Shown piece after piece: positions 456 through 45,823 of a DNA stretch of 64,000 bases; position 1 is the stretch's first letter; each line of letters opens with the position of its first letter. The DNA is from Methylobacter sp. S3L5C (GTDB lineage Bacteria > Pseudomonadota > Gammaproteobacteria > Methylococcales > Methylomonadaceae). Both the position numbers and the translations under genes were made by a program. The stretch is taken from positions 1,736,001 through 1,800,000 of the forward strand of contig NZ_CP076024.1 of the NCBI RefSeq assembly GCF_022788635.1. Reading direction: 5' to 3'. A model generated the notes under the pieces. That model searched no databases and was not told the DNA's origin. It saw only the letters and a program-made list of their open reading frames with translations.

Positions 456-1869
456 AACACCTGATTTTGGATTGGCCCGAATCATTGTTATTGGTGATGT
501 TATGCTGGATCGTTATTGGTCCGGGCAGGCGTTGCGTATATCTCCTGAAGCACCCGTGCCAGTTGTTAAGGTTAAATCGGTTGAAGACCGCATAGGCGGC
601 GCTGGCAATGTCGCGCTTAATATCGCCAAATTAGGCGGCAAAGTGACTTTGCTGGGTGTTGTGGGTGATGATGCCGAAAGTAAAATTTTAAGGGAGTTAC
701 TCGAAGCCGAGGGAGTGGTGTGCGATTTTGTTGTTGAGCCGTTGTTACGTAGCATCTGTAAGCTTCGTGTCATGGCGCAGCATCAACAATTGATCCGGCT
801 GGATTTTGAAGATACGCCGATAAAATTTGATCAAGAGGCTTTAAAGACGGCCTTAATCAGGCATTTTCCACAAAACGATGTGGTAGTTTTTTCCGACTAT
901 GGCAAGGGAACTTTGGCGGATGTTTCAGCTTATATTATTGCCGCCAGACAAGCCGGTGTTAAGGTTTTGGTAGATCCCAAGGGTGTTGATTATCAGCGTT
1001 ATGCGCAAGCTGACTTGATAACGCCGAACCTGGCTGAGTTACAAGCGGTGGTGGGGGCCTGTGAAAATAATCAACATTTAATTGAAAAAGGGCGTGAGCT
1101 TTTAGCTTTGTATCAAATTCCAACACTGTTATTGACTCGTGGCGAAGCGGGTATGACGCTGATAGATCATGATCAGGTGCATTCATTGCCGGCGCAAGCC
1201 AAAGATGTTTTTGATGTAACCGGAGCCGGAGACACGGTTATTGCTGTAATGGCTTTAGGTGTCTCGCTTGGTATGCCGTTGGTTGAAGTTATGTATCTGG
1301 CTAATTTGGCTGGCGGTATTGTGGTCGGTAAATTGGGAACATCAACGGTTTCATTACAAGAATTGGCGCGCGCCATGCACGGCGATAGAGATTCACTGTA
1401 TGGCGTTGTTTCCGAAGAAGAATTGGCCAGGCTTTTTGCACGGGCAAAAGCCCATGATGAAAAAATCATAATGACTAATGGTTGCTTTGATTTGCTGCAT
1501 GCCGGGCATGTCGCTTATTTGGAGCAGGCAAAAGCACTGGGTGATCGTTTGTGTGTGGCAGTTAATTCCGATGCTTCAGTTAAACAACTCAAGGGTGAAT
1601 CACGACCGATTAACGGTTTACATGAACGTATGACAGTACTGGCCGCATTGGCTTGTGTTGACTGGGTGGTGCCGTTTACAGAAGAAACACCTGAGCGTTT
1701 GTATTGTGCATTGTTGCCTGATGTTATTGTTAAGGGTGGTGATTATAGCCCTGAGCAAGTCGTAGGTGGCGATTGCGTTATTAAGGCGGGTGGTGAAGTA
1801 AAAATATTGCAGTTTGTCGATGGTCAATCAACAACAGCGATGATTAACAAGGCGAGGAAGATGGAATGA
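445..1869 (+). CDS. hldE: Bifunctional heptose 7-phosphate kinase / heptose 1-phosphate adenylyltransferase HldE
   Basis: Carries out two steps of ADP-heptose synthesis: phosphorylation of D-glycero-D-manno-heptose 7-phosphate and later adenylylation of the 1-phosphate. The protein is 474 aa, the normal length for the fused enzyme. Residues ~1-315 are a PfkB/ribokinase domain, with GGAGNVALN near the N-terminus and the DVTGAGDT anion-hole/catalytic motif near residue 258. Residues ~340-474 are a nucleotidyltransferase domain with [16 protein letters not shown] carrying the HxGH motif. The start is GTG at 445, preceded at a good distance by AGGAG (433-437) inside gmhA. The stop overlaps the hldD start as ATGA, so the pair is translationally coupled. 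Confidence 0.96.
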
Positions 1870-34262: not shown

Positions 34263-35042
34263 TTATTTTTGGTGGCAAATCGAATCATCCATAATGGAGT
34301 CCAGCGCTTCAGCTACCGGCAATATTCTTGCTCCGGAATCAGAACAATATTTTACAATCTGTTCAAAGAAGGCTGGGGTGCACTGATAGGGAGAAGGGAC
34401 TTCGCTTATGCCATGGGCGGCAAATATCAGCCATCCGTTAGCCCGAGAGTTTTGATCGATAACGTATTTGATAGCATCCAAATTATTTCGACTATGTTCA
34501 ATAAAATACGACTTTAGAAGGTTCAGGTCGACTGTATCAGTATTAAATGTCTGCCCACCGCTTCTGCAGCAATCAAAGTATTTTCTAGTTCTACGCTTTA
34601 TACCAGGTCGTGGACCTACGTTAGGGTAAGAGAACGATCTAAAATTGGCACCAGGAAAAAGTGCAGTCAGGGTTTGTTTGTTCTTGATTATAGAATCTTC
34701 AAATACTTGTGGACTGGTTGTGGCCGAATGACAGTGATCGAACGTATGGCATCCCAGCTCATGTCCCTGTGTGAAAAACTCTTTAAGATCTTTAATCGAG
34801 AAAATCATGCCGGTTGGGCCTTCAGTACCCATCAGCCCTAAAGAGGCATAATAAGTTCCTTTAAGACCAAACTTCAACAGAATATCGCCACCTGTATCCA
34901 ACGCTGAACGTGGAAAATCGTCAAAGGTAAACGAAATATAGGGTGCGCTGTTATGCATTGTGATGGACCGCTTAAAAAAAAGGTCGCTGATAGTTCGTTG
35001 GTAACGGCTTTGGATTCGTGAATAAATCGGTGGAGTGCTCAT
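34263..35042 (-). CDS. Polysaccharide deacetylase (NodB domain, CE4)
   Basis: A 259-aa CE4-type deacetylase acting on N-acetyl sugars of a polysaccharide or its precursor. The metal-binding motifs are SFTFDDFPRS (catalytic and metal Asp) and GCHTFDHCH (H-x3-H), with the later FSYPNVGPR and FAAHGISE segments. There is no signal peptide, so it is probably cytoplasmic. Its ATG overlaps the stop of the Wzy-like gene as ATGA, so it is coupled to polymer synthesis. Confidence 0.85.
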   Translation of the reverse strand: MSTPPIYSRIQSRYQRTISDLFFKRSITMHNSAPYISFTFDDFPRSALDTGGDILLKFGLKGTYYASLGLMGTEGPTGMIFSIKDLKEFFTQGHELGCHTFDHCHSATTSPQVFEDSIIKNKQTLTALFPGANFRSFSYPNVGPRPGIKRRTRKYFDCCRSGGQTFNTDTVDLNLLKSYFIEHSRNNLDAIKYVIDQNSRANGWLIFAAHGISEVPSPYQCTPAFFEQIVKYCSDSGARILPVAEALDSIMDDSICHQK

Positions 35043-36634
35043 TGGATATTAACCTTCATTTTATTATTTAATTTGGATTTAGGGTTAACACCATACTTAA
35101 CAGGTGTCTTGGCTTCGTAATTAGATCCAGTTCTTATAAAATCATTATTTCTACTTCGTGCTATGTTAATTGGTATGTAATCATTCAAGGATGAATAGTT
35201 CAAGGAGGAGAGAATTAGGATAACCCATTGAATGCTAAGTCTATTAAACGTAGCTTCTGTCCAATTAGAGAATACTAAAATGACAAGAAAAGAAAAGCAG
35301 AGCGTTCCAAAGCTATTACCTAGTAACATCTCCTTCTTTAGCTTGCTGCCAGTTGAGATGATGACAGCAATGAGCAAGCAAAGTCCTATTAACCCACCAT
35401 TCAAATATGTTTCCAGGTAACCGTTGTGAGCTTGATTCGGATGAAAATAATATTTCTCCCAAAGACTTGTCGCCTCTGATCCTAGCCAGAAGCTTTGATA
35501 TCCGCTCCCCAGAAAAGGGTTAATAGTTGATTGCAGCAAGTCCGCCCAGAGATCGGTACGCCCTGTCAGGGTCATATCTTCACCCAGTAATTCAAATAAT
35601 GATTGAAGGATATCCGGAAAGCTGTACAGCAGAAGCAGTAATAAGATCAATATTAGACAGCATGTTCCTAAATATCGTGTAAGGAACTGTTTTTTTGCGA
35701 ATGAGCGGCGTATAAAGAAAAAAATGCACATCCCAATAAATAAACTTACCAGTGAGGTCGAGCTGTCTGCTTTGGCTATCAGGTAAAACACCATCAATAG
35801 CAGCAAGACGTGGCTTGCCAAGTCCAAACTGGTCATCATTATAGTGTCAGCAGTGCTTTTGGCTACGAAGGGCCGGCGATGATTAGTTCCTTTAACGTAG
35901 ATTATTTTTTTCTGTTGTAATGATGACGATTGCTTTGCAAAAAAAGGCTTATTTACTTCATTTTTCTCTATAGAGTGCTTTGTTCGTATTTCGATGAAAT
36001 CCCACATTAGAAACAACCCCGAGATTAACGCCAGACATCCCAGAGCATTCTTGTCCTCAGTGACGCCAATATATGAATATTCCCACGTCCATTGATTAAT
36101 ATTTCTCCCGAACTCCGGCAAATAATTAATGAAAAAAACAGAAAGTGGAACCGTTAAGTATGAATAACGAAGAAATACGGCTTTTATTGCCTGTACATGA
36201 TCTTTTTCAGATAAAACGATCAATACCATAATTACATTACCAAAATCTTTAATCCATCTCTTGGAAGCAACAATTGGATAATCTGACCAAATGATACTTA
36301 TAAAACAATACAAAAAGAAAGCAAAGAGCCAAGGGTTCGATGCCAAGAGCATGCCCCACCTTAACCTGCGTCTTATCAAAACACTGAATCCAATAATAAT
36401 CAAAAGGAAATACACGAATGCATCTACTGGACTCCCCTGAATATAACCTTGAGGTGTTTCAGGTTGTAGTCGCCCAATGCCAAACCAAGCTGAAACAGGC
36501 CTCGATCCGATAATAATGATCCACCATAAAGGCACCCATAAGCCCCATGATGTCATAGGCTTCAACTTGCGATCTCTGGCGAAGAGCCATACAATTAACA
36601 GAATATAAATAAAAATTGCTAATTTGGGCGACAT
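35039..36634 (-). CDS. O-antigen ligase/polymerase-like membrane protein (Wzy/WaaL family)
   Basis: A 531-aa protein with about a dozen membrane helices. The conserved periplasmic Wzy_C signature is seen as GSGYQSFWLG followed by HPNQAHNGYLETYLNGG. Members polymerise repeat units or ligate them. In this island it is the best candidate EPS polymerase, working with the flippase and the GumC-type protein. A long Lys/Arg-rich cytoplasmic loop lies near residue 225-260. Confidence 0.85.
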   Translation of the reverse strand: MSPKLAIFIYILLIVWLFARDRKLKPMTSWGLWVPLWWIIIIGSRPVSAWFGIGRLQPETPQGYIQGSPVDAFVYFLLIIIGFSVLIRRRLRWGMLLASNPWLFAFFLYCFISIIWSDYPIVASKRWIKDFGNVIMVLIVLSEKDHVQAIKAVFLRYSYLTVPLSVFFINYLPEFGRNINQWTWEYSYIGVTEDKNALGCLALISGLFLMWDFIEIRTKHSIEKNEVNKPFFAKQSSSLQQKKIIYVKGTNHRRPFVAKSTADTIMMTSLDLASHVLLLLMVFYLIAKADSSTSLVSLFIGMCIFFFIRRSFAKKQFLTRYLGTCCLILILLLLLLYSFPDILQSLFELLGEDMTLTGRTDLWADLLQSTINPFLGSGYQSFWLGSEATSLWEKYYFHPNQAHNGYLETYLNGGLIGLCLLIAVIISTGSKLKKEMLLGNSFGTLCFSFLVILVFSNWTEATFNRLSIQWVILILSSLNYSSLNDYIPINIARSRNNDFIRTGSNYEAKTPVKYGVNPKSKLNNKMKVNIQ

Positions 36635-38056: not shown

Positions 38057-39145
38057 TTAAACGGAATCAACATTTTTTTTTAGTTGGGCAAAAATTTCGT
38101 CCATGATTCTTGATGTTAATAATATCTCCTTATAAGAAATTGGTAAGCTTGTATCATCAGTGATTGATTTGTAAAACGATTCAATCAGATATTTCATACC
38201 GCCTTTCATATGAAAGTCACGGCGCAAAAAATGACCAATATTGGTTAAATTATTTGCCGCATATTGAGCCGAGAATAAAATAGGAGGAACAAATTTTTCA
38301 AGATAGCTTTTATATTTTCGACCAGTAATTTTAATGCAAGTTTGTTGATCATGATCAACATCCAAGGAATTATTATTTCCGTACACCCTGAAATGATGCA
38401 GGGTAGGTCTGATTTGTGTTGAAAAAGTAAAATAAGCTGATCGGCAGTCGTTTTCAATAATGATAACCCTGACCTCATCGATTATGTCATTTTCTCCAAG
38501 GTCTTTGAGAAACTGGCTGGTATAACCTTTGGCAATGACTACAGGATTATCTTCAGTTAGAAATTCAGTAATACTGGCTATTCCATGGCTTATATTGTTA
38601 TGCATCAAGGTGCCTGGCAACATCCTTACCCAATGCTTTTTATCCCCTAAAATAGCCCTTGCATAAGTTTCCGAGCCGAGTTCATAGCAATGATAGCTTT
38701 CCATATGCAATGGCAGGCCACCCAGGTAACCAGAGCTAATAAGCTCACGCATCCGCCGTTTTGCGTGTGTAAATTGATAATCGTGACCGACTGTAATCTT
38801 TTTGTCTAGTTTATTGGCTAGATCAATTAGTGCGGCAGCTTCAACTGCATCAACAGTAAAAGGTTTTTCCATGTAGACATGGGCACCTGCTTCCAAGCAC
38901 AGTTTACCAAGTTCAAAATGGCTTTGTGGCGGTGTTGTGATGTGAACAACATCTGGGCGTGACTTTTCTAAAAAGTCCTTAGCATCGTTAAAATACGATG
39001 GTATATTATAACGCTCAGAAAGTTGCTTCGCCATTAACTCTTCAGTGTCACAGGTTGCAACGATTTCCGCCCCTTTTATTCTGATTATCTGTTCTACATG
39101 AGAATCTGCTATTTTACCGCAGCCAATTATGCCAACCCTTATCAT
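38057..39145 (-). CDS. Gfo/Idh/MocA-family oxidoreductase
   Basis: A 362-aa NAD(P)-dependent sugar oxidoreductase. The Rossmann motif is VGIIGCGKIADSHVEQI, followed by VHITTPPQSH and the family lysine in VYMEKPFTVDA. It probably dehydrogenates a nucleotide-sugar for the EPS. Its ATG overlaps the upstream epimerase stop by four bases, so the two likely act on the same sugar. Confidence 0.85.
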   Translation of the reverse strand: MIRVGIIGCGKIADSHVEQIIRIKGAEIVATCDTEELMAKQLSERYNIPSYFNDAKDFLEKSRPDVVHITTPPQSHFELGKLCLEAGAHVYMEKPFTVDAVEAAALIDLANKLDKKITVGHDYQFTHAKRRMRELISSGYLGGLPLHMESYHCYELGSETYARAILGDKKHWVRMLPGTLMHNNISHGIASITEFLTEDNPVVIAKGYTSQFLKDLGENDIIDEVRVIIIENDCRSAYFTFSTQIRPTLHHFRVYGNNNSLDVDHDQQTCIKITGRKYKSYLEKFVPPILFSAQYAANNLTNIGHFLRRDFHMKGGMKYLIESFYKSITDDTSLPISYKEILLTSRIMDEIFAQLKKNVDSV

Positions 39146-40212
39146 CTGTTTGCCTCTTTTTGCTTTTGGTATTCAAAATAACGTGAGAAGGCATCATTGG
39201 TATCCACTCTGGGTTTCCAATCTAACATATCCTTTATTTTATCATTTGAATAAGTATTGCCCTTCCAGTAACTTGACCATCTCTTGCAATTAAAAGTAGG
39301 GGGAAGTTGTCGCTCTGACCAGTCAGAGTATTTTTCCCATAGGTACGACAGGAAATAACTTGTAAAATGTGGTAGGTATACCGATGGAAACCACCCTACG
39401 CTTTTTTTATAAGCTTTCAAGAACTTCCTGCTCGTCGGAAGATTGTCGTCAACAATGTTGAATACTTCACTTGCCACTCCATTTGTGATGCCTGCCAAGA
39501 CAATGGCTTCAGCACAATTGTCAACATAAGATAAGGGGATTTGGTTGCTACCACCCAGATGAAGGAATATCCCGAATGTTCCTATCCCGACTCTTCCGGT
39601 CAGACCTTTGTTTCCCGGGCCATATACAACGCCTGGTCTGGCAATTACATAGGGTAAGTCGTATTTCTTTCCATATTCAACCACTAACTCATCTTGTCTC
39701 ACTTTTGCGTAGCAGTAAGCTTCGCCGGTAAGGTGCGGTTGATTTTCGATCTCACAAGACTCGTTTAGTAATCCACCCGGAAGTATTTTTAAAGTTGAAT
39801 AAACTGCGAATGAGCTAATATTAACAAATCTTTCAAATTTGGAGTCTTTGACGGCGTCAAGAATATTACGTGTTGTAACAACCGAATTCATATAGGCGTC
39901 AGCGTAAGATTTTTCGCCCCTTCCGGCAGCTAAATGATATATAACCGAGATGCCCTCTGCGCATCTTGCGCAATCTGCACGAGATTGCAAATTACCTTTA
40001 ATAATTTCAATTTGAACGTCTTTTTTATGATTAATAATTTTTTCCAGCGCAGCAAGGTTGCTTGATGGCCTTACTAGACACCTAAGATTTGTAAATCCAT
40101 AATCTATTAAAATCTCGACCACTTTTGAACCGATAAATCCACTGGCTCCAGTAATAAGAATCGGATCAGAATAATTTATTATAAAAGCATTATCATTCAT
40201 TGTTTGTTCCAT
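39142..40212 (-). CDS. NAD-dependent sugar epimerase/dehydratase
   Basis: A 356-aa extended short-chain dehydrogenase with ILITGASGFIGSKVVE at the N-terminus, SSFAVYS, and the catalytic YCYAKVRQDE (YxxxK). PGVVYGPGNKGLTGR matches 3-beta-HSD/epimerase relatives. Likely sugar-nucleotide epimerase or reductase. Two in-frame ATGs (residues 1 and 5) make the exact start uncertain. Confidence 0.85.
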   Translation of the reverse strand: MEQTMNDNAFIINYSDPILITGASGFIGSKVVEILIDYGFTNLRCLVRPSSNLAALEKIINHKKDVQIEIIKGNLQSRADCARCAEGISVIYHLAAGRGEKSYADAYMNSVVTTRNILDAVKDSKFERFVNISSFAVYSTLKILPGGLLNESCEIENQPHLTGEAYCYAKVRQDELVVEYGKKYDLPYVIARPGVVYGPGNKGLTGRVGIGTFGIFLHLGGSNQIPLSYVDNCAEAIVLAGITNGVASEVFNIVDDNLPTSRKFLKAYKKSVGWFPSVYLPHFTSYFLSYLWEKYSDWSERQLPPTFNCKRWSSYWKGNTYSNDKIKDMLDWKPRVDTNDAFSRYFEYQKQKEANR

Positions 40213-40242
40213 TCGTTAGCCCATCGATATTTTTAGTTACAA

Positions 40243-41148
40243 TCACTTTGTTATATATTTATCTTTAATGACATCCAGTCCAAAAAAAGAAATGACCCTG
40301 CCAATATGATCAAAATAACTGACTAAATATTTCATGAATAAATGATGTTGTATTAATAGTAAAAATGGGAGGAGCAGAGTATAAAGTGGAATGGCAATAA
40401 GAGACTTTGCGTATGAAGCATAGTTCTGATTGTAAGGAGTTTTTCCTCTCAACAATGCACGTCTTAACATAAACCATCTTTTATGTCGTTCTGGTGGCAC
40501 TACCTCATAAACCGGTGCCTTGGCACACCATACAAATTTATGGCCTTGGTTTATCATGCGTCGAAAAAAATCCCTATCTTCTCCGCCGCTACCAAACTCG
40601 GCTTTGAACATGTTTCCGCTAATATCAAAAATATCCCTTCTAAGCATTACATTTCCGGTTCTTGTTTGTGTCCATGACAAAACTGTTCCTGTTTCATGTA
40701 GCGGTCTTTCATGGAACCGACCTTTCACCACCCATTTGGGAGGTTGTTGCTCATAAAAAGGCAAAACAGGACCAAGAACGCCATCAGCATCAAACTTTAA
40801 ATAAGCTTTAAAAAGTTCTAATAGCCAATTTTCTGGCGGGAATTCGTCATCATCAATAAAAGCTATTAGCGAACTGTTGGCATTAGCTACAGCCCGGTTT
40901 CTCGCAAGAGCAATATTTTGTTCGGGTTCTACATCGTAGCGTACGTTAATTTGAGAGTTTTGCTGGAATGTTTGAACAACTTCACGGGCGGTTTCGCTAG
41001 AATCATTGTCAATTACCACAAGTGAATATTCGAAGAGTTTTTCAGTAAGCTGGCACTGTAACTTTTTCAATAAACGCTTAAGCAATTCAGGTCTCTTAAA
41101 TGTACATATACATATGGTTATTTGAATAGTAGTTGAAATTTTAGTCAT
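40243..41148 (-). CDS. Family 2 glycosyltransferase
   Basis: A 301-aa GT-A enzyme: TICICTFKRPELLKRLL at the start, VVIDNDSSE, the DXD-type IAFIDDDEFPPENW near residue 95, and the acceptor-side GEDRDFFRR. A hydrophobic C-terminal stretch (IAIPLYTLLLPFLLLI) may attach it to the inner membrane. Adds one sugar to the lipid-linked repeat unit; the sugar is unknown. Confidence 0.88.
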   Translation of the reverse strand: MTKISTTIQITICICTFKRPELLKRLLKKLQCQLTEKLFEYSLVVIDNDSSETAREVVQTFQQNSQINVRYDVEPEQNIALARNRAVANANSSLIAFIDDDEFPPENWLLELFKAYLKFDADGVLGPVLPFYEQQPPKWVVKGRFHERPLHETGTVLSWTQTRTGNVMLRRDIFDISGNMFKAEFGSGGEDRDFFRRMINQGHKFVWCAKAPVYEVVPPERHKRWFMLRRALLRGKTPYNQNYASYAKSLIAIPLYTLLLPFLLLIQHHLFMKYLVSYFDHIGRVISFFGLDVIKDKYITK

Positions 41149-41427: not shown

Positions 41428-43257
41428 TTATTTATCAAACATCTGTCTCTGCAGCAACTCGATAGTGAGTAGTTTGGTTATTTCATTGGTGTAGTTTCTA
41501 CGCCCCGAAGTATGATCCTCGACTATTTTCCTGACAAATTGTTTATTTACATAGGACCGGTTAAGGCTTTTATCATCCAGCAATATTTCTTTAACATAGC
41601 TAGATAATTCGTCTCGAAACCAGATACGAAAGTGATGAAATTTGTGTCTGCCTAAAAAGATTTTTTCAACTTGTAGTGGAGCTAAAATCAAATGATCGAT
41701 TGCAGCAAGCCACTGGGGCATACCATAATTGAAGGCATAGTCAGCCTTGAACAGTACTTCGCGATAAAGATGTATATATTTGGAATATATATCAGACTGT
41801 TCGCTACCCCGCAAACCTCTGTCAGTCATAATATTACCGAGTTGAGGATTGCCGTCATTAATCAGTCGAAACGAGAGGTCACTGTTTCGTAGAAGCTCTT
41901 TTGGAGCCCGAAACATCAGACTGACCAATTCGTTATCCAGATATGGAGATCGAATAGCCAATTGAGATTGCTCTAAACTTAGTCGATTATAATGATGCCA
42001 AGGTGCCTGTTTAAAAGCCGCCAAAGATACCGGATGCCCTTGCCATGCTTTATTTAAGGTGTCTCCTGCAAGGCTTATTTCTCTTTCAAAGCCAGGTTCA
42101 AAGAGACCTTTACAAGGTGGTATCGCTTTTAAGTGCCTTGCTCCTCTTAGAATTTCACTACCGTAATTGCCTGTCAAGCGAACTGATGCAATGTCTCTTG
42201 CCAGTTTGTTTACATAAAGATCAGCGGAACCTGTTACATCAAGTCCACCATCAGAAATATAGACCGTTTTTTCGGCCAAGCCAGAGAACTCAGAAAGAAA
42301 GTTCTTACCTACTTCAAAGACTTGATGTTTTTGATTGGTAATTTTCGAGATTTCACGTGAAATTTTTACGTCATAACATTCATTATGCATGCCGCCGAAG
42401 CTATAACCTGGCAGCATGTCTGGCAAAATATCAAGGTTCGCCAATATCATTCTGGTGTCTAATCCACCTGTTAGTGATATGGCAACATCATTATCAGGTT
42501 GCAAATATTTCGGTAAAATCTTAATAAATGTTTGCCTGAAGGTGCTATAAAACTCTTCTGTTTCAAGGGGAGGTTGGCTTTCCCAAGTTTCCGGATTGAA
42601 ATAACAACTCTTATTGATACAACCTCTTTGATTAAATTGCCAAAGCGATCCTGGAGGTAATAGTGAAACCTGTTCGAAAAGGCTTCTGTTTTCCAACACG
42701 CAACCAAAACTAAAAGACTCGCCCAAGCTTTTAAAATCAAACTGCCTTAATTCCGGGCAGACTGCCAGTAGAGCCTTAGCTTCAGAGGCGAAATAAAGAC
42801 GATCATTGCATTCATAATAATATATTCTTTGCATTCCATAGCGGTCGTTGAATAGCATCACTAATTTATTTCGAAGATCAATTACCAGGCCACTAAACCA
42901 TCCATTTAAAAGTGGTAAGGCATCAGTGCCAAGTTCTTCAAAAAGATCGATCAAGTAGACAGCTTGAGAATATTCGGATTGTTGACCACGAGGGTCTGGT
43001 TTTTCAGAATATCGTTGATTAGAGAAATCTTCTCCCGAAAATATCAGGCATAGATCGCGGTTCTTGTTCCACAAAGGCATACAGTCTGCAAAAGAACCCG
43101 CTCGATTGACCCATCCAACGCACAAATTAAGACTCTCATTAACATAGCTATCAGAGGTATAAAATGATTCATGCATCATATGCTTTATCATCTGGTGAAC
43201 CATTGTCGCATTTTCAACGGAAGAACCGGATCCAATTATTCCTACAATTCCTGGCAT
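41428..43257 (-). CDS. Asparagine-synthase-like protein lacking the glutaminase cysteine
   Basis: A 609-aa protein with the two-domain asparagine synthase B layout: an N-terminal Ntn-hydrolase domain (~1-200) and a C-terminal ATP-pyrophosphatase domain (~225-600) with the PP-loop variant SLTGGLDTRMI. The N-terminus reads MPGIVGIIG, so the catalytic Cys2 of the glutamine amidotransferase is replaced by Pro. The family in EPS clusters is thought to amidate sugar acids. Without Cys2 it would need ammonia or another amine donor. Length is normal for the family. Confidence 0.85.
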   Translation of the reverse strand: MPGIVGIIGSGSSVENATMVHQMIKHMMHESFYTSDSYVNESLNLCVGWVNRAGSFADCMPLWNKNRDLCLIFSGEDFSNQRYSEKPDPRGQQSEYSQAVYLIDLFEELGTDALPLLNGWFSGLVIDLRNKLVMLFNDRYGMQRIYYYECNDRLYFASEAKALLAVCPELRQFDFKSLGESFSFGCVLENRSLFEQVSLLPPGSLWQFNQRGCINKSCYFNPETWESQPPLETEEFYSTFRQTFIKILPKYLQPDNDVAISLTGGLDTRMILANLDILPDMLPGYSFGGMHNECYDVKISREISKITNQKHQVFEVGKNFLSEFSGLAEKTVYISDGGLDVTGSADLYVNKLARDIASVRLTGNYGSEILRGARHLKAIPPCKGLFEPGFEREISLAGDTLNKAWQGHPVSLAAFKQAPWHHYNRLSLEQSQLAIRSPYLDNELVSLMFRAPKELLRNSDLSFRLINDGNPQLGNIMTDRGLRGSEQSDIYSKYIHLYREVLFKADYAFNYGMPQWLAAIDHLILAPLQVEKIFLGRHKFHHFRIWFRDELSSYVKEILLDDKSLNRSYVNKQFVRKIVEDHTSGRRNYTNEITKLLTIELLQRQMFDK

Positions 43258-43298: not shown

Positions 43299-43443
43299 GT
43301 TACGCATTGACAATAAAAATTAATAGGTTGACCGTTTATTTATCTCTAATATAGAGGATTTACAGGTATTTTCTTTAATAAAGAAACCACTAATTTAAAC
43401 TAAGCATTTTATTTGATGATAAATATTATTATCAATGCGTAAC
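43299..43443. mobile_element. MITE-like element with 18-base terminal inverted repeats
   Basis: GTTACGCATTGACAATAA (43299-43316) and TTATTATCAATGCGTAAC (43426-43443) are complementary at 17 of 18 positions and enclose ~110 AT-rich bases with no gene. It lies between the asparagine-synthase-like start and the first tRNA-like sequence. No target-site duplication could be assigned with confidence. Confidence 0.6.
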
Positions 43444-43465
43444 TTCTATTATAAAGAAGGTTTGG

Positions 43466-43540
43466 TGGAGCCGGCGGGAGGATTTGAACACTCCATCAAC
43501 TGATTACATTTCAGCCACTCTAACATTGAGCTACACCGGC
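43466..43540 (-). tRNA. tRNA-Thr-like sequence, atypical (TGT), copy 1
   Basis: A 75-nt cloverleaf-shaped sequence with GCCGGTG/CGCCGGC acceptor arms, encoded CCA, and anticodon loop AATGTAA (anticodon TGT). It departs from working tRNAs at several places: U33 is A, the D-loop is AATGTTA (no G18G19 pair), the D-stem last pair is G-T, and the T-stem has two mismatched and one wobble pair (GAGTG with CCTCC). Either a tRNA pseudogene or a specialised non-translational tRNA. It differs from copy 2 at only 3 of 75 positions. Confidence 0.6.
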
Positions 43541-43740
43541 ATACGCAAAAGCATTTTAACTACACACTAGCGGCAAAATTGATTCAATAAACAATTTTTT
43601 ACTCTACTTACTCCTCAAACTACATGCAATATTAATAACACTATATATTGTCAAGTGCTTTAGTTCTGGATGACGCCTTAATGTCAGCGCTATCTTGCCT
43701 TTATAGGTCATTTGAATAAAAAAACCTTTAACATAAATAG
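43466..43740 (-). repeat. Tandem duplication unit 1 (tRNA-like + decayed gene 3' end)
   Basis: Aligns with 43745-44020. After the tRNA-like part it holds a diverged, frameshifted copy of the end of the FemAB-like gene: on the minus strand a stretch still reads MTYKGKIALTL, as in the intact gene. Short insertions and deletions and many substitutions mark the middle part. Confidence 0.8.
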
Positions 43741-43744
43741 CGGG

Positions 43745-43819
43745 TGGAGCCGGGGGGAGGATTTGAACACTCCATCAACTGATTACATTTCAGCCGCTCT
43801 ATCATTGAGCTACACCGGC
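43745..43819 (-). tRNA. tRNA-Thr-like sequence, atypical (TGT), copy 2
   Basis: 75 nt, as copy 1, but with a perfect D-stem (GCTC/GAGC), D-loop AATGATA, and an acceptor arm GCCGGTG/CCCCGGC with one mismatch. The anticodon loop AATGTAA (A33) and the mismatched T-stem are identical to copy 1. It starts 44 bases downstream of the FemAB-like stop codon on the same strand, so it would be in the same transcript. Confidence 0.6.
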
Positions 43820-43863
43820 AATACGCAAAATCATTTTAACTAAACACTAGCGGCAAAGATCAT

Positions 43864-44838
43864 TCAATAAGAAATTTGCTTTAAAAACTTTTTTTTACTC
43901 CACGTACTCCTTAAGTTACGAGCAATGTTTAGTAGGCTTTCTGGTAGCAGCGGCTTTAGTCCTAGATGAAGCTTTAATGTGAGCGCTATTTTGCCTTTGT
44001 AGGTCATTGGAATAAAGTACCTTGGTACAAAATGTTGCTCAAAGCCGTTACGTCGTTTGAACTCTGTAAGCGAACTTTTACTGTTCTTGCCGTAGATAAA
44101 CTTCCCGTAAGTTAAATATTTTAAGCCTTTATCGGAAGAAACTTTAACCGCTCTGGCTAATAAAGCATTAGCAGGCCGTTTATCATAATGCTCATTCATA
44201 CATAAGATTTGTAATATCGAGCAAATTTGTCCCATATAAACCATTTTGATAAAACCTATTAGGACATCATCGTAATAAGCACCGATAAATTCGCTTCTGT
44301 CTAAAAATGACGAATATTCTGCTTTTACAACATCAATGCTTTTTCCATAATGCCAAAAAGGCCTACCTTGCCGTACTGGCGTTTCATTATTAATCCCTAC
44401 AATTCCTTGTAACAACTCATCATTGAATTCAACTTCCCGAATGACCAGTCCACGTCGTTCTGCTCTTCTGGCATTTTTTCTCGCTTCTTGCGGGAGACTA
44501 TCCCACCAAAACTTGTAGTCTGAAGTAGGTATCGCAGCAACATTATCCCACTCCATTGGGAAATTAAACTTTGGTGTAATATTTGGCAGTTGTTGTGCGA
44601 AGGTGAAAATGTCAGCATTTAGATGTTCTTGTTTTAATTTGGCTATGCATTTCATTGGGTCATTAATGGCCCCATCTTCCAGCCAGGCTTCATCTTTAAC
44701 CCTGCCAATCTTAAGCCAGTTACCAGAAACAAATATTTCCCTTCCGTCCATTTCAATAGAAGGGACATTGACAACTCGACCTTTGACACTAATTTCCACT
44801 TTACCAAGCTCCCGATCATTGTAGGTTATTTGCAGCAA
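43864..44838 (-). CDS. FemAB/GNAT-like acyltransferase
   Basis: A 324-aa cytoplasmic protein with the GNAT-type double fold of FemAB-like enzymes: WWDSLPQEARKNARRAERR at residue ~112 (the Arg/Lys-rich helix typical of this group), FIGAYYDDVLIGFIKMVY and ILQILCMNEHY strands, and a C-terminal KRRNGFEQHFVPRYF. FemAB proteins transfer amino acids from aminoacyl-tRNA, while other GNAT relatives use acyl-CoA; the donor here is not known. It sits among glycosyltransferases, so it probably acylates or aminoacylates an EPS building block. Its 3' end plus a tRNA-like sequence has been duplicated downstream. Confidence 0.65.
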   Translation of the reverse strand: MLQITYNDRELGKVEISVKGRVVNVPSIEMDGREIFVSGNWLKIGRVKDEAWLEDGAINDPMKCIAKLKQEHLNADIFTFAQQLPNITPKFNFPMEWDNVAAIPTSDYKFWWDSLPQEARKNARRAERRGLVIREVEFNDELLQGIVGINNETPVRQGRPFWHYGKSIDVVKAEYSSFLDRSEFIGAYYDDVLIGFIKMVYMGQICSILQILCMNEHYDKRPANALLARAVKVSSDKGLKYLTYGKFIYGKNSKSSLTEFKRRNGFEQHFVPRYFIPMTYKGKIALTLKLHLGLKPLLPESLLNIARNLRSTWSKKKFLKQISY

Positions 44839-44869: not shown

Positions 44870-45823
44870 TTAAAAAAATACTCTATTAAAATTATTCAAC
44901 AACATTGATTTAAATATTTTCTTTAAACGGTGTTTTTGTTCACTTCTGCGAAAATCGACAAGCTCTTGAGATATAGGCCTTTGCAACTGGTTTATAAATC
45001 CCCAAAGATAGCCGCAATACAAAAATAAACCACTTACTATGTAGGGTTTATTTTTCATCTGATATATCGCTCGAAATAGCTCCCATACTGGATGCCCGCC
45101 CAGATAATAGTCCTGTTTACCGAATTTAAATCGTGATCTGAGAACTGTGCTTGTCCCGGTACCCATCTTTCTATGGTGAACAAAAGACTTTTCAGTAAAT
45201 GTTCTGGTATCCCATCCTCTCATGCGTGCTGTAGTTACAGCTGTCCAATCAATTCCACCTCCTTTGATTGGAAGGTACCCGCCAATTTCATCAAAACAAT
45301 CGCTTCTAAAAAGCTGGCATTGACCAGAAACATGTTCGATATTAACAATGTCGTAGTTATATGCGATGGTTGAATCTTCAATAAATGCTGTTCCGGCAAC
45401 ACCCAGCTGAGAATTATTTCTAAACTTATCGAGAAGAAACTCAAAATGGTCCGGGCCAAATGAAATGTCAGCATCTACATTACCAATAATTTCATGTTCT
45501 AGGTTCTGGGCAATCTTATAACCAGCATTGAAACAATGCACTTTTCCGGCAAAATTACGCTCTGCGCGGTCAGGCATTTTTATAAGTTCTATCCAGTGAT
45601 ACTTGGTCGTATATTTTTCTATAATCTCATCAGTACCGTCAGTTGATCCGTCACTTACGATTATCCATTTAATGGGTAGAACCGTCTGTAATATCATTGA
45701 CTTTAATGTCAACTCGATGAAAGCAGCCTCATTTCTGGCTGGTGTAATTATCACGTAGGCAGGAAGTTGCTTTGTTTCAGGCTTGTTGTCTGCAGATGTT
45801 GGTTTTTGTATATAATTTGTCAT
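44870..45823 (-). CDS. Family 2 glycosyltransferase
   Basis: A 317-aa GT-A enzyme: AYVIITPARNEAAFIELTLK near residue 22, the nucleotide-binding IIVSDGSTDGTDEI, the DXD as GNVDADISFG near residue 113, and GGIDWTAVTTARMRGW in the acceptor region. About 20 residues precede the domain. One of a run of sugar transferases for the repeat unit. It is separated from the FemAB-like gene by 31 bases. Confidence 0.88.
   Translation of the reverse strand: MTNYIQKPTSADNKPETKQLPAYVIITPARNEAAFIELTLKSMILQTVLPIKWIIVSDGSTDGTDEIIEKYTTKYHWIELIKMPDRAERNFAGKVHCFNAGYKIAQNLEHEIIGNVDADISFGPDHFEFLLDKFRNNSQLGVAGTAFIEDSTIAYNYDIVNIEHVSGQCQLFRSDCFDEIGGYLPIKGGGIDWTAVTTARMRGWDTRTFTEKSFVHHRKMGTGTSTVLRSRFKFGKQDYYLGGHPVWELFRAIYQMKNKPYIVSGLFLYCGYLWGFINQLQRPISQELVDFRRSEQKHRLKKIFKSMLLNNFNRVFF

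Follow-up and report, generated by a model that had tools for sequence, protein, structure and literature searches.

The stretch of 64,000 nucleotides (nt) of Methylobacter sp. S3L5C analysed in this work (contig NZ_CP076024.1; hereafter the window, within which all positions are counted) carries on its minus strand a gene for a FemAB-like double-GNAT transferase of 324 amino acids (43864..44838, with a TTG start as listed), followed by two copies of an aberrant threonine tRNA. We consider it probable that this locus, which lies in a polysaccharide cluster, combines a dedicated non-translational tRNA(Thr) with an aminoacyltransferase of the FemAB type, and that threonine is donated through FemAB to the polysaccharide. 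The order on the minus strand is the FemAB-like gene, tRNA copy B, a decayed fragment of the FemAB C-terminus, tRNA copy A and an asparagine-synthase-like gene (AsnB).

The two tRNA copies of the window

A first-pass annotation, made from the letters of the window, had described two cloverleafs of 75 nt with an encoded CCA and a TGT anticodon. Both were confirmed on the minus strand by the Rfam covariance model RF00005, copy A (43466..43540, the distal one) with 45.7 bits and copy B (43745..43819, nearer to FemAB) with 42.9 bits, above the gathering score of 29. Of the 50 listed tRNA matches in the 4.8-Mb host genome, these two scored lowest. ARAGORN at default settings called neither of them, which suggests that annotation overlooks tRNAs of this kind. 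Copy B starts 44 nt past the FemAB stop and on the same strand, so that the reported position directly downstream of this gene was correct.

Both copies have A at position 33, as had been read. Their D-loops are AATGTTA and AATGATA; the reported absence of G18G19 is therefore right for the doublet, which is broken by the loss of G19, but G18 itself is retained. The T-stem (GGAG-T-G / CCTCC) is abnormal in both copies, as noticed earlier, but "bulge" describes it better than the original "mismatches", since the extra U is placed by the Rfam model as an insertion. The copies differ at 3 of 75 positions, and one of these differences produces a U6-C67 mismatch in the acceptor stem of copy B, while that of copy A is fully paired (with one U-G pair). 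All 38 distinct ordinary tRNAs of the host (read by ARAGORN from its 48 other tRNA genes) have U33 and a GG in the region of the D-loop. The window copies thus lack the features of a translational elongator (U33, G18G19 and a regular T-stem) and present those of the tRNA-Gly of Staphylococcus (altered D-loop GG and T-stem, with charging identity kept). In addition, the host has an ordinary tRNA-Thr(TGT) elsewhere (L030), which is 72% identical to copy A.

The tRNA was duplicated along with the 3' end of FemAB, of which a decayed copy (residues 270-322, at about 43577..43735, minus strand) remains with 57% identity and one TAG. The earlier contrast between nearly identical tRNAs and a decayed coding duplicate was upheld when the two units were aligned: the tRNAs are identical at 72 of 75 positions and the adjoining coding stretch at 99 of 131 ungapped columns (Fisher p=8e-5). 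The 36 nt preceding copy B (43820..43855) are also kept in the matching stretch before copy A (43541..43575; 33 of 35 ungapped columns identical), possibly as a leader or promoter, and with these columns added to the tRNA the difference from the coding stretch has a Fisher p of 1e-5. A consensus scan of the window gave no sigma-70-like site at 43820..43855 and no convincing promoter or terminator before the tRNAs. The same slow drift was seen over a far larger distance: between the window and 14 acidobacterial loci the tRNA is 70-91% identical (90.7% between copy A and the copy of L057) and the FemAB DNA 48-55%.

FemAB and its linked tRNA in other genomes

The window FemAB protein alone matched no Pfam or NCBIfam family. 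Pfam FemAB (PF02388), absent from the window protein, was found in 1 of 16 aligned members and weakly (E 0.0017), and Acetyltransf_6 in 7 of the 16. The AlphaFold model (16 sequences) reached a predicted local distance difference test (pLDDT) of 87 and a predicted template modelling (TM) score of 0.82, and it has the double-GNAT fold: Foldseek matched it to Sbb17 (E 4e-12) and FemX (3e-11) with a TM score of about 0.55. The best structures in the PDB were aminoacyl-tRNA-dependent peptide synthases (Sbb17 and Sba18), followed by FemX, MprF and others. Given this TM score and the presence of acetyl-CoA enzymes among the weaker matches, the proposed donor chemistry draws on the fold and the linked tRNA together.

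Conservation of the tRNA beside FemAB-like genes elsewhere, which had been proposed as a check, was found in Nitrosomonadaceae and Acidobacteriota. A two-row FemAB profile scanned over genome contigs gave 17 loci (14 Acidobacteriota by title and one each of Omnitrophota, Nitrosospira and Methylobacter), in 7 of which ARAGORN placed a tRNA-Thr right after FemAB on the same strand; a tRNA-Asn lay upstream in 2. The FemAB profile also matched 57 of 399 genomes of the class of an Acidobacteriaceae bacterium (G433) and 13 of 175 genomes of the family of a Nitrosospira (G432). A search for FemAB in 369 genomes of the class of the host gave only the host and three weak matches. Rfam scans of 58 loci of that class and 14 of the 16 of that family revealed 13 tRNAs (9 Thr-type, 2 Cys, 1 Asn and 1 Gly), all on the FemAB strand and at most about 250 nt from it. 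ARAGORN with a loosened threshold was too noisy and was used only for the positions of Rfam-confirmed tRNAs. One additional Thr copy, interrupted by an assembly gap (L152), was detected by pattern only.

The signature GGRGYGTTCRANTCCYCCMGCCGGCTCCA, with up to 3 mismatches allowed, was then scanned over these 399 + 175 = 574 genomes. It matched exactly 13 times in the 399 genomes (a further 16 matches all had 3 mismatches; 1 or 2 mismatches did not occur) and once in the 175 (L242, beside FemAB; 2 more with 3 mismatches). All 14 exact matches adjoin FemAB on its strand, with no orphan among them. It must be noted that the signature was derived from the 17 copies known at that point, among which are 12 of the 14 exact matches (those of G688 and G924 being outside); its recall is thus partly built in, because the pattern was written from known copies, but neither the linkage nor the absence of orphans is affected. 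In the Nitrosospira-family locus L242 the signature tRNA (1267-1342, minus strand) has an anticodon loop of 8 nt, and AsnB lies upstream of FemAB.

In the 14 acidobacterial loci compared the FemAB stop falls inside or past the tRNA, and in 9 of them (L048, L053, L055-L057, L097, L103, L108 and L111) the FemAB frame continues through the tRNA and its stop codon ends 8 nt after the CCA; the other 5 have their stop elsewhere, in 4 cases inside the tRNA. Therefore, one transcript may give rise to the complete FemAB or else to the tRNA. The genes are separate in the window and in L242, where FemAB ends before the tRNA.

A FemAB tree of 76 rows, from which L063 and L158 (split FemAB frames) were left out, placed all 16 Thr rows, of which the window is the outermost, in a clade of 20 (support 100/96) together with both Cys rows and two rows lacking a tRNA. 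L101, the same place as L135, and L241, a repeat of L052, were dropped. L242 joined this clade in a tree of 53 rows with Nitrosomonadaceae added (21 rows: 17 Thr, 2 Cys, 2 none; support 89/90). The Thr clade thus spans Methylobacter, Nitrosomonadaceae and Acidobacteriota. Two loci, L135 (G484) and L129 (G525), have tandem FemAB genes, with a tRNA directly after the Thr-clade copy only.

Eighteen copies of the tRNA (the interrupted one of L152 excluded) were compared with 11 ordinary tRNA-Thr, 10 from FemAB-bearing genomes (6 of them with a locus tRNA) and 1 from the host. A pyrimidine bulge in the T-stem is present in 18/18 copies and in 0/11 of the comparison set. Position 33 is U in 9 copies, C in 6 and A in 3, against U in 11/11; the D-loop GG has been lost in 14 of 18 copies and is kept in 4, against 11/11. 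T-stem cells are 100% paired under the bulged model and 66.7% under the ordinary register, and for the whole bulged structure four of five pairing measures were better than in 499 or more of 500 shuffles, that of further pair types being the one which was not.

The outer acceptor pairs 1 to 5 are invariant in all 18 copies. These include G1-C72, C2-G71, G4-C69 and G5-C68, which were tested as threonine identity elements; the anticodon is NGT in 17/17 copies and CGT in L242. The bacterial threonine identity set given in Table 1 of PMC9976931 also includes G34, which is not kept here (position 34 is C in 10 copies, U in 6 and A in 2), as it is not in the ordinary CGU and UGU isoacceptors either. 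The first-pass annotation had left the amino acid as threonine or another; threonine is favoured because 18/18 copies keep the acceptor-stem determinants and G35-U36.

A proposed donor change and the weighing of alternatives

Two sister genes nested in the Thr clade (L159 and L160) have a decayed tRNA-Thr right after FemAB and an intact tRNA-Cys upstream. The remnants are at best 77% (L159) and 48% (L160, with its missing 3' end counted as gaps) identical to a living copy. The tRNA-Cys of both loci start with GCCGCGG and three others in the same genomes with GGCGCGG (a fourth is cut by the end of a contig); their pair 2-71 is thus C-G, as in the locus tRNA-Thr, while the three other tRNA-Cys have G2-C71. 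Pair 2-71 is read by FemX of Weissella (PMC4052509). From these sequences we infer that FemAB may read the outer acceptor stem and that both loci would have changed their donor. AsnB was not found within the fetched flanks of L159 and L160. For other tRNA kinds the evidence is uneven. The tRNA-Asn near L051 and L052 may be a coincidence, because it has an ordinary form and is the sole tRNA-Asn found in those two assemblies, and the ordinary-looking tRNA-Gly of L144 may be a chance neighbour. More suggestive is the tRNA-Asn of L124, a second copy in its genome.

Separately, it was observed that this tRNA-Asn (L124:1870-1945, minus strand) overlaps the FemAB stop codon, as tRNA-Thr does, and that its FemAB belongs to another clade.

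A wider proposal is that FemAB and its own non-translational tRNA form a two-part cassette, present in more than one phylum: the kind of tRNA would determine which amino acid is attached to the polysaccharide, and an exchange of the tRNA gene (from Thr to Cys, possibly also to Asn or Gly) would rewrite the glycan. We hold this tentatively, at somewhat less than even chances.

Several observations weigh against a dedicated tRNA(Thr) serving FemAB. A universal link is contradicted by the 60 relatives of the host, in which no locus tRNA was found: the best match outside the host has 75% identity, and the 7 best matches fetched were ordinary tRNA-Thr(CGT). FemAB itself is present in one of these relatives, Methylobacter psychrophilus Z-0021 (G034), which also has AsnB; no tRNA lies in its fetched stretch, and its FemAB falls outside the tRNA clade. 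Among the 13 Nitrosomonadaceae genomes with FemAB, a nearby tRNA occurs only in G924 (Thr-like) and G432 (an ordinary Asn). No tRNA label was obtained in the fetched stretches for 52 of the 76 FemAB rows, and 2 more rows are second FemAB copies; even within the Thr clade, L047 and L059 have no tRNA (undetermined bases lie near the FemAB end of L059). Acetyl-CoA GNATs, VipF among them, are found among the weaker fold matches, and a sequence search of the PDB with FemAB gave only short matches, mostly to GNAT stretches of acetyltransferase type. Moreover, U33 is still present in half of the tRNA copies and GG in 4 of 18, copy B with its acceptor mismatch may be a failing gene, and local gene conversion could be another cause of the similarity between the window copies. 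The comparison across phyla is independent of such conversion. The statement that FemAB always has a tRNA was examined and rejected: as M. psychrophilus and the 52 rows indicate, a tRNA is no general requirement of the FemAB family.

Among the alternatives, that of a cis-acting RNA in the operon mRNA (an RNase P processing site, or a sensor of charged tRNA or of threonyl-tRNA synthetase (ThrRS) that tunes femAB and asnB) deserves most attention, although we regard it as unlikely. The element overlaps or directly follows FemAB on its strand, processing would affect the FemAB message in the 14 acidobacterial loci whose stop lies inside or beyond it, and the thrS mRNA of Escherichia coli carries a mimic of tRNA-Thr (PMC9976931). 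However, a processing site would need neither the invariant anticodon GU nor the acceptor determinants and CCA, FemAB does not reach the tRNA in the window or in L242, and an upstream tRNA-Cys with a decayed tRNA-Thr (L159 and L160) suits a donor better than a 3' element. The shared stop 8 nt past the CCA in 9/14 loci, with a common frame through the tRNA, would also be expected if the sequence were kept as the coding C-terminus of FemAB and the tRNA shape were a relic. This is very improbable, given the 5 loci with other stops (4 inside the tRNA), the two loci in which FemAB ends ahead of it, and changes that track the cloverleaf.

It is likewise improbable, if slightly less so than a coding relic, that these are extra translational tRNA-Thr genes located by chance in a horizontally moving polysaccharide cluster. 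Rfam, and in the first seven acidobacterial loci also ARAGORN, call them tRNA-Thr, and half of them retain U33. Nevertheless, the host has an ordinary tRNA-Thr of its own, and one turned up in 6 of 7 genomes with a locus tRNA that were searched for it (not in G435). Furthermore, the T-stem bulge is universal in the copies, U33 is lost in 9/18, L242 has an 8-nt anticodon loop, and no exact signature copy stands apart from FemAB in the 574 genomes. Least credible of all is the null put forward with the original annotation, that of tRNA pseudogenes; these would stem from the integration of a mobile element or from duplication. A FemAB fragment was indeed duplicated in tandem with the tRNA, the Rfam scores are low and copy B has its mismatch, but this null fails on the contrast of 72/75 with 99/131 in the adjoining duplicate (p=8e-5) and on the conservation beside FemAB in another phylum, with 70-91% identity and covariation; true decay looks as in the remnants of L159 and L160.

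Cluster context, proposed mechanism and known systems

The locus is surrounded by genes of polysaccharide synthesis, all those located below being on the minus strand. The asparagine-synthase-like amidotransferase (GATase_7 and Asn_synthase domains; 41428..43257) adjoins FemAB in most related loci. A Gfo/Idh/MocA oxidoreductase, an NAD-dependent epimerase/dehydratase and a glycosyltransferase (38057..41148) are recurrent neighbours in related FemAB loci, as is the family-2 glycosyltransferase upstream of FemAB (44870..45823). The same cluster has a polysaccharide deacetylase (HfsH-like, under the model cut-off) and a Wzy_C/O-antigen-ligase-like protein (34263..36634), and its content includes glycosyltransferases, a Wzx-like flippase and XrtA-type chain-length (Wzz-like) and tyrosine-kinase proteins; most NCBIfam names in it score under their cut-offs and indicate a type only. 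Between copy A and AsnB (43299-43445) the DNA is AT-rich, with GTTACGCATTGA at one end and, by eye, an inverted copy at the other.

In the mechanism that we propose, the tRNA would be transcribed beside or together with femAB and then processed. The ThrRS of the cell would charge it, which is proposed because G1-C72, C2-G71, G4-C69, G5-C68 and G35-U36 are invariant. By analogy with the staphylococcal tRNA-Gly, the T-stem bulge, the missing G18 or G19 and the lost U33 could keep it off EF-Tu and the ribosome. FemAB, judging by its fold and gene context, may then move threonine onto a sugar amino group of the exopolysaccharide repeat unit before polymerisation, the deacetylase could free the acceptor amine, and the AsnB-like neighbour probably forms another amide on the same glycan. 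Both types of product have a chemical precedent, since Pseudoalteromonas agarivorans has an N-acetyl-L-threonyl amino sugar in an O-polysaccharide and an Aeromonas polysaccharide contains a uronic acid that is partly amidated (PMC3210612).

If true, the cassette would amount to a small genetic code for sugars, apart from translation. Only a small number of tRNAs are known to be dedicated to a role outside translation, and how transferases obtain charged tRNA past EF-Tu is described as mostly unclear (PMC4052509). Here a tRNA is tied genetically to one enzyme and retains the determinants for its charging, while features that serve at the ribosome have disappeared in several lineages; a natural replacement of the donor also appears to have taken place. 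This allows direct tests, in vitro or in environmental bacteria, of specificity, of the escape from EF-Tu and of glycan modification directed by a tRNA.

With respect to known systems, the XrtA/PEP-CTERM loci share an AsnB-like gene and XrtA-type chain-length and tyrosine-kinase genes with the cluster, but the window AsnB scores 109 bits against TIGR03108, the XrtA/PEP-CTERM amidotransferase, under its curated cut-off of 816.9, and the two XrtA-type proteins of the window are also under curated cut-offs. To our knowledge, no dedicated tRNA belongs to the TIGR03108 locus as described. The thrS operator of E. coli also places a tRNA-Thr-like RNA in an mRNA (PMC9976931); that mimic has no equivalent of the acceptor arm, unlike the full cloverleaf with CCA found here. 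The FemX-like transferases of natural products (VlmA, DhpH-C, DhpK, PacB and Orf11, with Sbb17 and Sba18) have the double-GNAT fold and are cluster-encoded as well (PMC12945691), but in the text of that paper the term "tRNA gene" does not occur and no linked tRNA appears under that name. None of these transferases was found by the PDB sequence search with FemAB.

Non-translational tRNAs that serve Fem enzymes are a known kind in Staphylococcus, in which a FemAB-type transferase system (FemXAB) uses a special tRNA that, as here, has an altered T-stem and a replaced GG18-19. These non-proteinogenic tRNA-Gly are thought to evade EF-Tu (PMC4052509, PMC9976931, PMC4810233). Searches of the open-licence PMC literature, by titles and abstract openings, listed no polysaccharide cluster with a tRNA gene linked to FemAB. 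We provisionally regard it as new that the tRNA is genetically linked to its enzyme, that it occurs in a Gram-negative and acidobacterial setting and in the context of a polysaccharide, that U33 has been lost, and that the donor has been replaced. The staphylococcal system carries glycine to the peptidoglycan of Gram-positives, whereas here the amino acid would be threonine and the setting is a polysaccharide cluster of Pseudomonadota and Acidobacteriota; U33 is lost in half of the copies, the T-stem has a bulge where the staphylococcal one has weak pairs, and the gene of the tRNA lies beside the transferase gene or overlaps it.

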